DNA of 64,000 nt from Streptomyces sp. NBC_01116 (lineage in GTDB: Bacteria; Actinomycetota; Actinomycetes; Streptomycetales; Streptomycetaceae). Shown here piece by piece: positions 48,249 through 55,425 of this stretch; the stretch's first letter is position 1, and each line of letters opens with the position of its first letter. The notes beneath the pieces were generated by a model, which searched no databases, was not told where the DNA came from, and saw nothing but the letters and a program-made list of their open reading frames with translations. The translations under genes were made by a program, and so were the position numbers. The DNA is taken from positions 6,619,501 through 6,683,500 of the forward strand of contig NZ_CP108644.1 in assembly GCF_041435495.1 (NCBI RefSeq), written 5' to 3'.

Positions 48249-49316
48249 ACCGTGTCCTACGTGGTGAGGCGGATGAGTCGCTTGTAGCTCGGTGGTGCGC
48301 GCAGGGTCAGACGGTGGAGGCGCCTCCTCCATGGCGCGGGGCGGCGAACAGGTCCGCGAGCCCGCCCCGGCCCCGTCGGCTCCCTCCGTTTCCGTCGCCG
48401 CGCGCACGTAGCGCACACTATGCCCGTAACGACGTGACCCGTATGCCGGATTTGTGTGTCGCGCGCTGTTGAGCTGCACGTATTTCCACATGCTTTCGTG
48501 TCCACATGTTTCGCGATGACGCATCATGTGGAGTGCGTGGCGATTCTGGAGCCGGTGAAGAAGGACGCCTGACCTGGGGTTTCCTGGTCTTCGTGAGCTG
48601 CTCGACCTGTTTCCGGGCCAGCAACGCGTGAGGGCGCGTCGGTCCTGCTGAATCAACCTGACCTGCGGTTTCAGTACGGGACGTCGCGGTCCTAGCTAGC
48701 GGCATCAGGGCTTTCCTCGGGCTGCTGACGCTCAATTGACGCACGTTCTGAAGCCCCGTCACGTTGGCCCGGCCGCGTCCACGGACGCGGCCGGGCCAAC
48801 GGCTTGGTCGCCGACCCGCAAGCCGCCGGCCCTATGACATCGCGAATGCCAAGCCTGATTTTTGGCTGATGACACTCACTCATTGCCGGGTGTCGCCCCA
48901 GTAGCGATTTCTCAGCGTCACTGACCACAGCCATTCTCGACGAGCGGCTGCTGGACTTCGAGGTCCTGTCCATTAAGGCGTTGCTCGCCGGCTTCAGGAC
49001 TTGCGGCCCGTGGCCCGAGAACATGCCGCCGTCGGACTGGTGGGCGGACTTCGGACTGCCCGCGACAGGGGCGACGGAGCCCGCCGGGAACAGCGGTGGG
49101 CAGCTGGCGGCGGTCGCCCGGGAGTTTTCGGTCCGCGCAGTCGCGCCCCGAGAATGAGTTGACAGTTATCGGCTCAAGATCTAGGGTCCATGACCCGTAC
49201 TGCTTGATCCAGCTATGATCGACGCAGTTCTCGCCGACAGCCGAGGTGCCGTTCTTCGGCAGGTCGGGCCTTACTAGGATTACTCCAACCGATTGCGGCC
49301 CGACGGGCTTCCTGAA
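48249..49316. other. Long intergenic region with a tiny ORF and possible remnant
   Basis: About 1.07 kb between efeU and the first helicase gene. It holds an 18-codon ORF (separate entry), TGACCTGSGGTTT-type repeats at 48570 and 48659, and a plus-strand open piece (about 48930-49157) reading ILDERLLDFEVLSIKALLAG and ENMPPSDWWADFGLPATG. That piece is coding-like but has no start or family. Confidence 0.4.
48516..48572 (+). CDS. Tiny 18-residue ORF, paired with one at 55667
   Basis: Encodes MTHHVECVAILEPVKKDA. The related MTQHVGCVATLEPVAKGA is encoded at 55667-55723 in the same orientation; many differences are at third positions, which suggests peptide-level conservation. No ribosome site is obvious. 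TCCACATG (48501-48508) and CATGTGGA (48525-48532) form an inverted repeat over the start. It may be a leader peptide or the start of a lost gene. Confidence 0.35.
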   Translation: MTHHVECVAILEPVKKDA

Positions 49317-49359
49317 CAGGACATGCCCCCACCCGCACGAGTCACTCGTGCCCTGGGGG
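49317..49359 (+). promoter_or_regulatory. Conserved start-codon hairpin, copy 1
   Basis: A 25-bp stretch (49317-49341) is identical to the reverse complement of 53846-53870. It folds as an outer stem CCCCCA/TGGGGG (49326-49331 with 49354-49359) and an inner stem GCACGAG/CTCGTGC. The candidate GTG start at 49348 lies in the inner stem. Confidence 0.7.
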
Positions 49360-51492
49360 AACCACCTCGTGTCCATGCTCCTGCTGAAACTGTCGGCGGA
49401 GGATCTGCTCACTCTGAATTCGCGTCGCAGAATGGTTCCGCACCTTGCTGCCCGATGGCGCCACTTCAGGGGCGCGGACGCCTCATTGTCGGAACGTTCC
49501 GCGTGGGCGGAAAGCCTGGTGAGCCTGGCGAACGACCTGGTCGCGGCGGAGCGCGGCAACGTGGAGATGATCGTCGAATGTGCCGCCACGCTCGACGAGG
49601 TGAACCGGTCCGAGAACCCACGCCTCATCGACGTCGTTCTGGTGGGCCGACACCCGGAACGCAACGTGCCGTCGGTCCAGTTGGTCGAGCTGAAGCGCTG
49701 GTCGACGGTGACCAGGGTGGAGCAGGCCACGGCAGACCTGCTCTACGTGCCGGCCATGGACGAGGTGAAGCAGCACCCTGCACTGCAATTGCGCTCGTAT
49801 TACGAGGCGTTCACGAGTGACAGGGGCCCCTTCCGGCGCTCGGACTTCGAATGCGGAGGTTTCGCCTACCTGCACAACGCCGCGGATGATTCGGTTCGGC
49901 CCTTGACCGACGTGGACGCGCCGACAGGTGCCTACGCCCGCGTGTACACGAGAGACCGGCGCGCACAATTGCTGTCCGACCTCCAGCGGAACTTCGCCGT
50001 TGAAGGCGCGGCCTCAGAGGCCGAGAGGATGCTGCAGAACATGGGGTTGCGCAACACCCCGCTGCTCGACGCGATGATCTGGTCCCGCGGGGCCGACACC
50101 GTTTTCACCCTCCGTGGGCGCCAGAAGGCAGTCGCCGACCAGGTCCTGGAATCGGCCGCCAAGGTTCTACCGGATCCCGAGCGTCCCACCTTGGTCCCGG
50201 ACGAGCAACGGGTGATCTTCCTGGTGACCGGTGGCGCCGGAACGGGAAAGAGCGCGATCGGACTGCAGATCAAAGCGGAGCTGGAGGCACAAGGCCGCAC
50301 GGTCAACTACGCAAGCGGCAGTAGGGCGTTCAACGGCGCGCTTCAAGAGCACGTCGGATACGGAGACCGGGAGTTCAGGGAGTCGTTCACGTACTTCAGC
50401 AATTTCGTCAGACCACCGGAGCCACCCCTGGACGTGTTGATCTGCGATGAGGCACACCGACTACGCGACCGCTCGACGAATCGATTCTGGAAGCCCGAGG
50501 ACTGGGGCACGGGGCCACAGGTGGACGAGCTCCTCGCCGCGTCGCGACTGACGGTCTTCTTCATGGATGAAGGGCAGTCGGTGAGGCCGAACGAGGTCGG
50601 TACCGTACAGCTGATCAAGGAGGCTGCTGCCCGCCACGATGCCCGCCTTGTTGAGGTCGGGCTTCGCGAGCAGTTCCGCTGTGGCGGCAGCGACGCCTAC
50701 CCCCGTTGGGTGCGCGCCGTGCTCGGTGTGACGGACGAGGAGGCCGAGTGCTGGCGCCCGGACGGCCTGATGCACGTCGAAGTGGCGGACACCCCTGAGG
50801 AACTCGAACGGATCATCCGTGCCGAAGCGCTGGCCGGTGCGTCTGCGCGCATGGTCGCCGGCTATTGCTGGCCTTGGACCAAGCCACTCGGCAAGGAGAG
50901 GCGGCTGGAGGCCGATGTGCGCATCGGCAACTGGCACCGGCCGTGGAACGCGGACAGCGACACCTTCTGCGCTGACGACGTGCCCCCGTCCAAGATATGG
51001 TCCGTGCACGAGAACGGCCTCGGCCAGATCGGTTGTGTCTATACGGCGCAGGGCCTCGAATGGGACTGGTGCGGCGTCATCATGGGCGAGGACATGGTGC
51101 GCCGAGACGGCCAATGGGTGTTTCGTCGGGGCAAGGAGCGCAAGGACGAGGAGTCCGACGCCAAGCGGGTGGCTTGCCCCGGCTCGTTCGACCCGAAGGT
51201 GAAGGCGGGCAGTGTCGACGACGAGGAATTCGCCAGACTCGTCCGCCACGCTTATCACGTGCTGATGACCCGGGCCAGCCGGGCAACCGTGCTCTATTCC
51301 ACAGACGAGGAGACCCGGACCTACCTCAAGGAACTCGTCGGGCCGGTCGAGATCCACGCGTTGCGTCCTACGCGGGAGAATCTGCCTGCCGAGGCGCGTA
51401 AGCCGCACCTGCCCCGGCCCAGCAGGGGAAGACGTGGCAAGAGGAATCGGAAGGGGCGCAAGTCGCAGGGGCCCGATCTGACGCTGTTCTGA
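49348..51492 (+). CDS. PD-(D/E)XK-like nuclease / DUF2075 helicase protein I
   Basis: 714 residues from GTG 49348, chosen by homology with the paralogue start; ATG 49375 is an alternative. An N-terminal nuclease-like motif: Asp in PRLIDVVLVG and E-x-K in SVQLVELKRW (about residues 95-115). The helicase domain has Walker A LVTGGAGTGKSAIGL (about 290), Walker B DVLICDEAHRLRD, and late motifs EQFRCGGSDAYPRWV and GCVYTAQGLEWDWCGV. This is DUF2075, the Schlafen-group-3-like DNA/RNA helicase. A basic tail (GRRGKRNRKGRKSQG) may bind nucleic acid. Its place beside a BREX remnant points to phage defence, which is inference. Confidence 0.85.
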   Translation: MPWGNHLVSMLLLKLSAEDLLTLNSRRRMVPHLAARWRHFRGADASLSERSAWAESLVSLANDLVAAERGNVEMIVECAATLDEVNRSENPRLIDVVLVGRHPERNVPSVQLVELKRWSTVTRVEQATADLLYVPAMDEVKQHPALQLRSYYEAFTSDRGPFRRSDFECGGFAYLHNAADDSVRPLTDVDAPTGAYARVYTRDRRAQLLSDLQRNFAVEGAASEAERMLQNMGLRNTPLLDAMIWSRGADTVFTLRGRQKAVADQVLESAAKVLPDPERPTLVPDEQRVIFLVTGGAGTGKSAIGLQIKAELEAQGRTVNYASGSRAFNGALQEHVGYGDREFRESFTYFSNFVRPPEPPLDVLICDEAHRLRDRSTNRFWKPEDWGTGPQVDELLAASRLTVFFMDEGQSVRPNEVGTVQLIKEAAARHDARLVEVGLREQFRCGGSDAYPRWVRAVLGVTDEEAECWRPDGLMHVEVADTPEELERIIRAEALAGASARMVAGYCWPWTKPLGKERRLEADVRIGNWHRPWNADSDTFCADDVPPSKIWSVHENGLGQIGCVYTAQGLEWDWCGVIMGEDMVRRDGQWVFRRGKERKDEESDAKRVACPGSFDPKVKAGSVDDEEFARLVRHAYHVLMTRASRATVLYSTDEETRTYLKELVGPVEIHALRPTRENLPAEARKPHLPRPSRGRRGKRNRKGRKSQGPDLTLF

Positions 51493-51540
51493 ACGCGCTT
51501 TCGCGTTCGGTGTGAGTGGCGGGCTCACCGGGCCCGCCAC
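51491..51540 (+). terminator. Two hairpins after DUF2075 gene I
   Basis: GAACGCG/CGCGTTC with a 4-base loop (51491-51508), then GTGGCGGGC/GCCCGCCAC with a 7-base loop (51516-51540). They lie between convergent genes and may serve both. Confidence 0.7.
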
Positions 51541-51549
51541 CCGCCTGCT

Positions 51550-51678
51550 CTAGAAGAGCAGACCCGCAATCGACAGCAAGGCCGTCACCACAAGATTGGT
51601 GACGACTCCGACGGCGATCTCGATCAGGATCTCGCGGATCCGTTCACGACGCGCAGGCTTGTACTCGACCGAGGTCAT
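51550..51678 (-). CDS. Small single-helix membrane peptide (DUF6408-like?)
   Basis: 42 residues from ATG 51678, with GGAG 6 bases upstream; the longer frame to 51783 is less likely. A polar, basic start MTSVEYKPARRERIREILIE is followed by one helix AVGVVTNLVVTALLSIAGLL. It resembles short Streptomyces proteins I recall as DUF6408, not verified. Located between the two convergent nuclease/helicase genes. Confidence 0.5.
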   Translation of the reverse strand: MTSVEYKPARRERIREILIEIAVGVVTNLVVTALLSIAGLLF

Positions 51679-51945
51679 GGCCGCTCCAATGCAGTGAGAT
51701 CGGAATGGCAGGGGGACGCCCTGCGGGCATCCACGCTCGCGTCGTGTGTCGCCACACGACGGGCACAACCATTCGTCGCTCACGGGTCATTGGGGCATGC
51801 GTACCGACCCTTGCCTCGTACCCTCCGGGAAGGTGCGCAGCGCGATCATGCTATCTCGCGGCCTCGCCCGCGCGTCGTGGTTTTCGCAGTGTTCCAGTGG
51901 TCGAGAGCGCCCTGATTTTCGCGGCGCCTCGAAGGCGGTTGGTGC

Positions 51946-53838
51946 TCAAGGTGTCGGAGGGATCAGCGTGCGGAGCTTCTCGCGGGTCTCGGGATCCGTC
52001 GAATAGACGACCGTCCCGATCATGCCCCGGGTGAGAAGCACCTTGTACGTATTGCGCACGAGGCGATCCACGTCGTCGTCCGATGTCGCCTTCGTGAACG
52101 ATGGATCCTTCGACGCTGTGCGGTCCACCACCCAGTGGTCGGTCCGCCAGACGAGGTCCGGGCCCATGATGACACCCGACCAGTCGTACTCGAAGCCCTG
52201 CGCGGTGTACACACATCCGACCTGCCCGAACCCCTCGGGGGTGGTGGCCCACAGTGGCGCCGGCGGTGCGCCGAGCAGGGCTCGGTCACCGTAGAGGTTC
52301 CACGGCCTCGCCCAGTCACCGATGACCACGTCGGTGGGCAGCGCGTTCATACTGGAAGTGATCTTCGTCGTCCACTTCCAGCAGTAGCCCGCGGACATGC
52401 GGGCGCTATAGCCCTGCGCCCGTTGAGCGGCCAGGAAGTCTTCGAGTTCCTGCGGGGTGTCGACGGTCATCAAACGCACCTTGTCGTCCGGCTCCCACAC
52501 GGTGGGATCTTGACCTTCGAGCCCCAGAAGGTCGACGACCCACTGCATGTACGCGTCGCTGCCACCACATCGGAACTGACTGTCCAGTTCCACCACGGTG
52601 CATGCGAGCCCCAATGCGGCGGCTGCTTCCCGAATCTGCTCCTCCGTCCCCATCTCGCCCGGTCGGACCACTTGGTGCTGGTCCAGCAGGAAGACCGGAA
52701 CCCGAGCCGCTGCCATCAGCTCCGCCACCTGCGGTCGGCCCGTACGGAGCGTCGCCTTCGTGTAGCGGTTGGCGGAGGTCTTGCGCAAGCGGTGCGCCTC
52801 GTCGCAGACAAGGACGTCGAGATCGTTGGGCCCAGCCTCCATGAAGCTGTTGAAATAGCGGAAAAGCCGCTGCACTTCGGGCTTCCGGGTGCCGGCGATC
52901 TTGCGCATCGTCTTGGTGAACGACTGCGAGCCGGTGGCGTGCAGGGCGGGCACCCCGCGCCGGTAGAGGTCTCCGAGGAGAGACAGGGCGATCACACTCT
53001 TGCCGGAGCCCGGCCCCCCGGTCACCACGACGACCCGTTTGTGATCCGCTTGTCGCGCCCGCCGCACTGCGGCCATGACCGTCTCGTAGGCGAGCCGCTG
53101 TTCATCGAGCAGGACGAACTGTTCCCGGTCGCGCACCTCTGCGGCGGCAACGGCCATCAGCTGCCTCGACGGCCTGACCTTGGCCTGCAGCAAGGCATCG
53201 GCCGCATCCGCACCGGGTTTCGCGGCCAGGCGCGAACGCAGGTAGCTCAGGAAGGCGCCGCGCTGATCACCGGTGAACATCCGGCCGCGATCGTCTTCTG
53301 CGACATGGCGGAGGCCCGCCACTTTGGCCTCCGTCGCGTTGTGCAGGTATGCCACGCCGACGACCGACTTCGGACTGTTTTCCAGAGCCCCGTTGAACGA
53401 GACCAGGTAGTCACAGTAGCCGCGCACCTGCTCGATCGGATTGAGGATCGGATGGTCGTAGGCGTCGATATGGCAGAGCAGCGGATCCTCCGGCTCGGGG
53501 TGGGCTTCGCTCCACTGCTTCAGTTCGACCACCACGTACGACGCCTCACCGGTGGCTGGATGCACGCCGGCCAGTATCACGTCAGCGCGCTTGCTGGTCA
53601 GCGGCAGCCCGTACTCCAGCAGCATTTCCACTTCGCCGAGCCCGGCTTCCACGAGCACGTTGGTGAGTGCCGGGATGCTGCGCTCCCAAGCCCGAACCTC
53701 CGCCGGCTGGGGACGGTGACGGTGCTGGTGCAGGAAGTTCTCCGCCAGGAGCCGCGCCAATCGGCCCTCGACGTGGGTGCGGGTGGCCAGTGACGCCGCA
53801 GACTCACGGAACAGCAAGAGAATGCCCCCAGGCAGCAC
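51946..53838 (-). CDS. PD-(D/E)XK-like nuclease / DUF2075 helicase protein II
   Basis: 630 residues from GTG 53838. Nuclease-like motif: Asp in SKRADVILAGVHP and E-x-K in SYVVVELKQWSEAHP (about residues 85-115). Helicase: Walker A VVTGGPGSGKSVIALSLLG (about 275), Walker B DVLVCDEAHRLRKTSANRY, SQFRCGGSDAYMQWV and GCVYTAQGFEYDWSGVIMG. Same architecture and many identical motif blocks as protein I but clearly diverged; lacks its basic tail. The two genes face each other. The start codon lies in a hairpin shared with gene I. Confidence 0.85.
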   Translation of the reverse strand: MLPGGILLLFRESAASLATRTHVEGRLARLLAENFLHQHRHRPQPAEVRAWERSIPALTNVLVEAGLGEVEMLLEYGLPLTSKRADVILAGVHPATGEASYVVVELKQWSEAHPEPEDPLLCHIDAYDHPILNPIEQVRGYCDYLVSFNGALENSPKSVVGVAYLHNATEAKVAGLRHVAEDDRGRMFTGDQRGAFLSYLRSRLAAKPGADAADALLQAKVRPSRQLMAVAAAEVRDREQFVLLDEQRLAYETVMAAVRRARQADHKRVVVVTGGPGSGKSVIALSLLGDLYRRGVPALHATGSQSFTKTMRKIAGTRKPEVQRLFRYFNSFMEAGPNDLDVLVCDEAHRLRKTSANRYTKATLRTGRPQVAELMAAARVPVFLLDQHQVVRPGEMGTEEQIREAAAALGLACTVVELDSQFRCGGSDAYMQWVVDLLGLEGQDPTVWEPDDKVRLMTVDTPQELEDFLAAQRAQGYSARMSAGYCWKWTTKITSSMNALPTDVVIGDWARPWNLYGDRALLGAPPAPLWATTPEGFGQVGCVYTAQGFEYDWSGVIMGPDLVWRTDHWVVDRTASKDPSFTKATSDDDVDRLVRNTYKVLLTRGMIGTVVYSTDPETREKLRTLIPPTP

Positions 53839-53870
53839 GAAGTAGCTCGTGCGGGTGGGGGCATGTCCTG
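53822..53870 (-). promoter_or_regulatory. Conserved start-codon hairpin, copy 2
   Basis: Outer stem ATGCCCCCA (53822-53830) with TGGGGGCAT (53856-53864), inner stem GCACGA (53835-53840) with TCGTGC (53847-53852). GTG start at 53836-53838 within the inner stem. Loop differs from copy 1 while both stems are kept. Confidence 0.7.
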
Positions 53871-53963
53871 GTTCCGCGAATGCGGAGTGGAAGCCTGTCG
53901 GGCCGCTGAGTCTGTCGCGGCCATTCTAGAGCAGGCAGCGGATCAAGAGCCTGGCCTCACGTT

Positions 53964-55425
53964 TCAACGGGTGGACGCGGTGTGGAACCGTACCGTGTCG
54001 TGCGAGGCCGCTCGCGCGCCGTCGAAGTCGGCCAGTCGCGCGGCAACGGTGGCCACCGCGAGACGCTGGGGGAGCGCTGCTGAGAACTTCAGGCCGTGTA
54101 CGGCTCGGTGATCGACATCGGGCAACACCAGCGCGTTTCCGCCGTCGGCATCCGCACTCGCCACATGTCGGGTGTCAGGTCTTCCCTCAGCCGCACGTAG
54201 CAGTCCGTCGGTCGTTGAACGGGGTCACTGATCGACGGAAGGGTGGTGGCCAGTGTCGCGTTCGCCCGGTAGCCGGCCCACGTCCACCAACGCACATCCG
54301 TTCCCCGGCGGGTGATCAGGGAGCCGTCAGCATCCGTGATCTGTGGAGCATCTTCCTCACGCCACTCGGTCAGGCACGCCTCGGCCCGACGGGTCAGAGA
54401 AACCAAGGGGTCTGCTCCGAGAAGTACGTCGCGCATCGAGCGGGTCAAGGCTTACGAGCGACCGGCGAGGGAACCGCCCGTCCATTTGGCGACGCCACCA
54501 CCGTCGGCCGGCTCGACGAAGGCCCGCTTGCGCCCCCAGTCGATGAACGTCACTTGCCAGCTGCGTCCGCCGAGCAGCAACAGGCGCGGGCCCGGCCGCT
54601 CTTCCATCCGGACGGAAGGGGCCGTCTGCCCGATCTCGGTACGACCGGACAGAACCGTGAACCCCGGGGGAGCGGGGAAGGAAGCGGTCAATTCGATGAA
54701 GTGACGCCGGCCGAGGCGTCGCTCCGCCTCGGGGCCGATGAAGAGCATGCCGGCGTCCTCGTCGAGGAATCCTTCGTTCACCAGGTGTCGCAGGATGGGA
54801 GCCGCTGAGCGGTCGAACGGGGCCAGCCCGTTCCACACTTCTTGCCATGTGCCGGTCACCGATGCGGTGCTGCTGGAGCGTGGCAGCGAGCAGCTGTTGC
54901 GCCACGAGATCGCGAGGTTCTGGAGGCGGTGTTACCGGTTCGACCCAGCCGCGGCCCCAGAGCAGCAGGAGAACGGCGGCTCGCAGCAGGGTGTCCTTGC
55001 CGGTGGCGAGGAACAGACAGTTGCGGGTGGTCCCCGAGCGCCTGTCGGTACGGCCGATGCGCTGGAGGAACGATGCCACGGTGCGGGGCGAGTCGATCTG
55101 GATGACGCGATCCAGGTCGCTCACGTCGATGCAGTTCCAGTGTGGAGGTGGAGACGATGACACAGTCTCGTGCCTCTGCGAGGGCCTGTTCCGACCTGGC
55201 TCTTTCGTCGGCCGAGAGCGAGGCGTGCGAGAGGAACACCGTCACTTCGCGCGCCCGCAGGGCGGCTCCCAGCTCCTCCACCTGTCGTCTGGACTCGCAG
55301 GACACCAGCCGCTTCTCTCCTCGGTGCAAGGCGGCGATCAGCTTGGACGCGTTGTCGAGCGACCCTACGTAGTCCAGCTCCACCTCGCCTGGAGGCCGGA
55401 GGTTCCCGGTCGTGAGGGCGACGGT
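53964..55425 (-). pseudogene. Lhr/BrxHI-like ATP-dependent helicase, 3' half, decayed
   Basis: Successive minus-strand frames give a helicase C-terminal half: GEVELDYVGSLDNASKLIAA, SCESRRQVEELGAALRAREV, ARDCVIVSTSTLEL, then after a shift near 55140 DLDRVIQIDSPRTVASFLQR and IGRTDRRSGTTRNCLFLATG (motif VI region, with Asp for the usual Gly), then TFIDWGRKRAFVEPADGGGV. A TAA interrupts at 54452, and the final LKFSAALPQRLAVATVAARL is in another frame. Motifs I-III are deleted. At least three frameshifts and a nonsense codon mean it is dead. BrxHI of type 2 BREX is such an Lhr-type helicase. Confidence 0.75.

Follow-up and report, generated by a model that had tools for sequence, protein, structure and literature searches.

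Two convergent genes in the window (the whole 64,000-nucleotide stretch of Streptomyces sp. NBC_01116 DNA that was analysed, to which all unprefixed positions refer) are both preceded by a 5'-leader element of ~70-100 nt. It is probably a riboswitch-like cis-regulatory RNA of Actinomycetes, which would control the translation of DNA-targeting defence genes. The element starts with GCGGCCCGACGGGCUUCC, continues with a variable hairpin and GGACAYGCCCCCACCCGC, and ends with a hairpin that sequesters a GGGGG Shine-Dalgarno (SD) sequence.

The two genes and their leaders

Gene A (49369..51492, + strand) and gene B (51946..53817, - strand) encode proteins with a PD-(D/E)XK-like N-terminus and an SLFN-g3 helicase, and they do converge, as the sequence-only reading of this DNA had it. 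The helicase half of the nuclease/helicase identity proposed there is secure: the full-length SLFN-g3 helicase domain PF09848 scored 309.6 bits in A and 302.2 bits in B (Pfam gathering cut-off 24), with E-values of 1e-89 or better. The nuclease half is likely, as E68, D79 and E98-L-K100 are invariant in 28 homologues together with the Walker motifs, which fits a PD-(D/E)XK-type nuclease joined to an SF1 helicase, although none of the Pfam nuclease models matched either protein. The predicted structure (mean pLDDT 84.9) has an alpha-beta fold at the N-terminus, and helicases (RecD2, SLFN11, Dna2) dominated the matches of a fold search carried out with it. A search by sequence for solved relatives of the proteins found none, and the PADLOC model PDC-S41 matched over part of the length only (E 1e-8 and 1e-20). 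Just upstream of this region, positions 48762-48801 form a perfect, terminator-like 19-bp inverted repeat with a 2-nt loop.

In the leader of gene A (+ strand), the 5' aptamer-like domain spans 49295..49336 and is predicted to contain three stems: P1 (GCGG 49295-49298 with CCGC 49333-49336), P2 (GGGC 49305-49308 with GCCC 49325-49328) and P3 (UCC 49310-49312 with GGA 49319-49321). CGAC 49301-49304 and CCA 49329-49331 are conserved and unpaired in it. The SD-sequestering hairpin (49326..49359) pairs CCCCCA 49326-49331 with TGGGGG 49354-49359 and has an inner stem of GCACGAG 49335-49341 and CTCGTGC 49345-49351; the SD-like GGGGG (49355..49359) lies 9 nt before the start codon. In the leader of gene B (- strand), the 5' domain spans 53851..53906. 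Its P1 consists of GCGG 53906-53903 and CCGC 53854-53851, its P2 of (A)GGC 53896-53893 and GCC(C) 53862-53859, where the first pair is an A-C mismatch, and its P3 of UCC 53891-53889 and GGA 53868-53866, joined by a hairpin linker (53888-53869). The corresponding SD-sequestering hairpin (53825..53861) pairs CCCCCA 53861-53856 with TGGGGG 53830-53825, and GCACGA 53852-53847 with TCGTGC 53840-53835 in the inner stem.

The 25-nt identity between 49317-49341 (+) and 53846-53870 (-), which the sequence-only reading had pointed out, is real. Between A and B, the 30 nt around it are 93% alike; another box of 18 nt, which lies farther upstream at 49295-49312 and 53889-53906, shows 94% likeness. The nested stems described there, with CCCCCA:UGGGGG as the outer and GCACGA(G):(C)UCGUGC as the inner one, belong to the minimum free energy (MFE) fold of both leaders. 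However, the element proved to be longer: it begins at GCGG (49295 for A; 53906, - strand, for B), and this shared hairpin makes up just its 3' part. A covariance model found the two copies in the window with 69.4 and 64.5 bits (E ~1e-11 and 1e-10), both being among the sequences from which the model was built, and the next best match in the window had an E-value of 0.8; the likeness is not due to chance. A recent duplication had been named as an objection and was considered as the origin of the likeness. It was rejected: the proteins are 37% identical, and the linker between the conserved boxes is 6 nt long in A versus 20 nt in B, so the duplication is old. By their sequences, A and B are old paralogues.

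Among 80 relatives of B, the consensus of the 5' part reads -10 box, about 6-18 nt, GCGGCCCG(A/C)CGGGCUUCC and a variable linker, and that of the 3' part GGACAYGCCCCCACCCGCACGAG-loop-CUYGUGC-NNNN-UGGGGG, 5 to 9 nt and the start codon. Of 161 leaders, 129 have a TANNNT motif whose end lies 8-20 nt ahead of GCGG, whereas shifted control windows gave 3 and 2 such cases. The predicted -10 boxes are TAGGAT 49275..49280 (+) for gene A and TAGAAT 53923..53928 (-) for gene B. Since the distance to the -10 box is so narrow, the element should form the extreme 5' end of the transcript, and transcription would begin just upstream of GCGG. The objection that it might begin downstream of the hairpin is not borne out so far, as both predicted boxes precede the element.

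The start codons had been placed inside the hairpin, and this part of the earlier proposal had to be abandoned. Among 78 homologues of B, the reading frame of the hairpin GTG (53838 for B) agrees with that of the gene in 45 and is shifted in the other 33 (+1 in 4, +2 in 29), and the codon is missing in one further homologue. With such a variable frame it was rejected as a start codon, the actual starts being GTG 49369 (or possibly ATG 49375) for A and TTG 53817 for B. The spacing between the G-run and the start is 5-9 nt in 79 homologues of B; hence, the G-run is the SD site and the hairpin belongs to the untranslated leader. The same stretch could in principle be read as an upstream ORF (M-P-P-P-A-R...) that regulates translation via polyproline stalling, as both window copies contain GGACAUG CCC CCA CCC GCA CGA, which encodes MPPPAR. 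However, the AUG is often ACG, AGG or AAG in other elements, and insertions such as CAUACCGC disrupt the frame. As alignments show that the start is not conserved, we rejected this ORF as a general mechanism and give it a negligible probability.

Conservation of P1-P3 and the competing SD hairpin

The sequence-only reading had suggested a covariance model as a test in homologues, and covariation was indeed found. In a MAFFT alignment, 97% of the P1-P3 cells pair and five pairs are changed on both sides, with 12 double-change cells in all; shuffled controls have 1.9 of them and slid ones no more than 3. A second alignment of 95 distinct class-wide sequences, which was made by the covariance model and is hence biased towards it, contains double changes in 7 of 11 pairs. 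They amount to 26 cells, whereas shuffling gave 2.5 (0/500) and sliding no more than 8. P1 occurs as ACGG:CCGU (L176, L177), GCGC:GCGC (L233-L235, L270) and UCGG:CCGA (L160), P2 as AGGC:GCCU (L097, L109, L145, L160, L192, L213, L219), and P3 as UCU:AGA (L151), UUC:GAA (L156) and wholly different stems (L158, L217). In P2, A-U replaces G-C mostly where the middle strand has a U; 14 elements, that of gene B among them, have mismatched A and C as the first pair. The unpaired bases that precede P2 (C, G, A, C) and those that follow it (A, C, C, A) show 92-100% conservation, and in this they resemble those of ligand-binding aptamers. The covariation supports a structured, conserved 5'-leader RNA.

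The spacer between the two boxes ranges from ~3 to 54 nt, and linkers of at least 14 nt fold better than shuffles, 43 of 75 being at or below the 5% shuffle rank. This bears on the suggestion that the element acts as DNA, either as an operator for a transcription factor or as a selfish mobile repeat, in which the hairpins are incidental. A palindrome near a promoter and identical stretches in two copies would suit such a site. However, the element lies downstream of the -10 box, its stems show compensatory changes, and the spacer is not only variable but also self-complementary in most of the long cases. Furthermore, the 8.7-Mb genome contains only two exact matches to the 16-mer GGACATGCCCCCACCC, and the only two genomic copies of the element both precede SLFN-g3 genes. 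A DNA site is highly improbable for these reasons, more so than any of the other explanations discussed below.

The strand GCCCCCACCCGC closes P2 and P1, yet its partners in the MFE fold are UGGGGG and the CUCGUGC arm. As the 3' strand of P1-P3 is also the anti-SD strand, the two folds are mutually exclusive. In L145, L213 and L192 all three strands have changed together in the order A..U..A (AGGC / GCCUCC / GGAG), and the change in L292 is similar; such triple changes are expected if one strand takes part in two competing pairings. For the SD hairpin alone, double-change cells in the MAFFT alignment were not above the slid controls, and its covariation is modest.

The SD hairpin is the local MFE structure in almost all of 116 diverse leaders (mean z -2.3, with 66 of them below -2), and its energy is about -20 to -27 kcal/mol in most. 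In constrained folding, the SD-hidden fold had -38.7 kcal/mol versus -27.2 kcal/mol for the P1-P3 fold in leader A, and -44.5 kcal/mol versus -28.0 kcal/mol in leader B. By this calculation the SD-hidden fold is 11-16 kcal/mol more stable, and the default state should therefore be OFF. For the same reason, the switch would need cotranscriptional trapping of P1-P3 or a strong binder. The modelling points to mutually exclusive folds, one of which would control the SD.

The great stability of the SD hairpin might also suggest an RNA thermometer or a purely structural throttle, which senses nothing and simply keeps expression low. A thermometer, however, would have to melt at growth temperature, for which the hairpin is much too stable. 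Both versions also leave the near-invariant 5' domain, the covariation and the conserved unpaired loop unexplained, and we regard them as very unlikely.

Distribution and downstream genes

Across Streptomycetaceae, 79 of the 80 genes most closely related to B have the element immediately before them. In a sample of the class Actinomycetes (395 genomes, 137 genera), a covariance model of the 5' domain only, which was built from mostly Streptomycetaceae sequences, detected it in 40 genomes and 23 genera. A second model found it in 20 of 166, 56 of 201, 25 of 150 and 4 of 22 genomes of four orders or families, which were picked because they had matches. Outside the Actinomycetes, a phylum sample of 346 genomes gave a single dubious match. 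A 79-genome class sample was searched by a Pfam model instead of the RNA model, and the strong SLFN-g3 genes in it carry the element (L280-L289, and also the partial L292). The exception is one strong-scoring gene (in genome G337); the element is also absent from the lower-scoring G308 and G320. The gene in G337 (L299), a strong SLFN-g3 gene with no detectable element, belongs to an actinomycete with a 1.4-Mb genome.

Carriage by phages was considered and rejected, as the core pattern had no exact match among 2.9 million viral contigs. An unverified 9-kb scaffold from the human gut labelled 'Bacteriophage sp.' (L298; MT836681.1) has an SLFN-g3 gene that is 55% identical and has the element directly upstream; it may be a mislabelled bacterial fragment. 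The Streptantibioticus cattleyicolor megaplasmid (NC_016113.1:770802-770848 and NC_017585.1:1042253-1042299) contains a partial element of 92% identity under no annotated feature. We also observed that SLFN-g3 genes with the element are often paired, either in tandem (~2.1 kb) or, as in the window, convergently (~3.5-4.5 kb); L045, L115, L119 and L246 are examples.

Nearly all of the genes behind the element are of the SLFN-g3 type. A minority code for EVE-HNH or EVE-like proteins (L157, L160, L159, L219, L226, L272), where EVE was assigned below the Pfam cut-off or by eye, and HNH is above the cut-off in L160, L226 and L272. In L244, the HNH protein behind the element matches a PADLOC type IV restriction model with an E-value of 8e-62. 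The downstream genes belong to or resemble SLFN-g3 helicases (PF09848; PADLOC candidate PDC-S41), type IV restriction enzymes such as ScoMcrA (PMC3009677) and EVE-HNH proteins, the last being predicted modification-dependent restriction enzymes (PMC7641849). In three cases (L244, L272 and L159, at G1201:C364, G1343:C71 and G670:C1, respectively), the unrelated HNH or EVE-HNH gene is divergent from an SLFN-g3 gene about half a kilobase (~0.5 kb) away, and each of the two has its own leader. Such a pair looks like a two-gene defence module. In addition, a 48-bit match with P1 ACGG:CCGU (L250:1903-1962, + strand) precedes the gene of a CBS-domain protein (2004-2777), the C-terminus of which, with RNRFAHHH, looks HEPN-like by eye. 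This locus has no clear SD hairpin, and the gene is a possible further target. No metabolic genes that would hint at a ligand were linked to the element.

As unrelated families share one 5' domain, a common signal acting in trans is suggested rather than self-binding. The earlier suggestion that the hairpin is bound or cut by the proteins encoded behind it found no support in this comparison, as SLFN-g3, EVE-HNH and type IV restriction-like HNH proteins all have the same leader. A broader version of this idea is that the leader is bound by a common RNA-binding protein or by the encoded helicase or nuclease, which represses translation or frees the SD. Autoregulation via 5' leaders is frequent among nucleic-acid-binding proteins (PMC11109978 uses it as a category), SLFN-g3 and EVE proteins are themselves predicted to bind nucleic acids, and strong sequence conservation is compatible with a protein site as well. 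On the other hand, unrelated families have the same 5' domain, and the ability to bind it would have to have arisen convergently if every product acted on its own leader; a shared host protein could still play the role. We consider a protein-bound leader unlikely, albeit the most serious of the competing explanations.

Proposed mechanism and implications

The translational switch, which the sequence-only reading had put forward, gained support from the sequestration of the SD, the covariation, the element's place at the predicted transcript's 5' end and the class-wide conservation. The riboswitch-like leader would work as follows. As the RNA emerges, the stacked stem P1-P3 with its conserved internal loop (CGAC / CCA) would form first. 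If a signal held P1-P3 during transcription, the SD would stay accessible and translation would be ON. Without the signal, the SD hairpin would take over, and expression would be OFF by default. Both the ON direction and the trigger are our inference; the latter could be a small molecule or ion, an RNA or a shared host protein. Since DNA is the predicted target of the controlled genes, foreign DNA or infection stress is a plausible cue, and the trigger might report foreign or phage DNA or the resulting stress. As for the link to defence that had been suggested earlier, its support comes from gene content. A more specific possibility, which we offer tentatively, is an RNA sensor of a metabolite or nucleotide signal of phage or foreign DNA that switches on unrelated families of DNA-targeting defence genes, in other words an innate-immunity riboswitch.

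Translational T-box leaders of Actinobacteria are also 5' leaders with a conformation that hides the SD. In contrast to them, the element has no match in Rfam, and there are no aminoacyl-tRNA or amino-acid genes downstream of it. The Rfam search covered positions 49000-54200 of the window (E up to 10) and 14 diverse loci (E up to 1), and for the families including T-box, ykkC and guanidine-III the element remained below the family thresholds. Autoregulatory leaders of the ribosomal-protein type are similar to it in that a structured 5' leader precedes the gene of a nucleic-acid-binding protein, but they are linked to one protein family, whereas the element is common to unrelated proteins. Also close in layout are SD-sequestering translational riboswitches and candidates such as the Streptomyces dauA and livJ motifs (PMC11109978), which likewise have a 5' leader, a conserved aptamer-like domain and the SD in a stem. 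Candidates of this type belong to metabolism and transport genes and are genus-wide, whereas the element belongs to defence nucleases and is class-wide. Of the Streptomyces candidates that we found in the main text of that paper, none precedes such defence nuclease genes. Our literature search, outside of which lay preprints, subscription papers and supplements, found no description of the element, nor of an RNA leader shared by the SLFN-g3, type IV restriction enzyme or EVE-HNH families. An SD-sequestering leader RNA is of a known kind, while a class-wide leader for unrelated defence nucleases appears to be new.

How bacteria silence toxic defence nucleases and yet rouse them early enough is still largely unanswered. 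If the proposal is true, an RNA switch common to unrelated defence genes throughout a class would be a new layer of their control, and it would help to trace the signal by which infection is reported. The element would also serve as a sequence marker for more defence genes, as it already has for EVE-HNH and perhaps for the CBS-domain protein.
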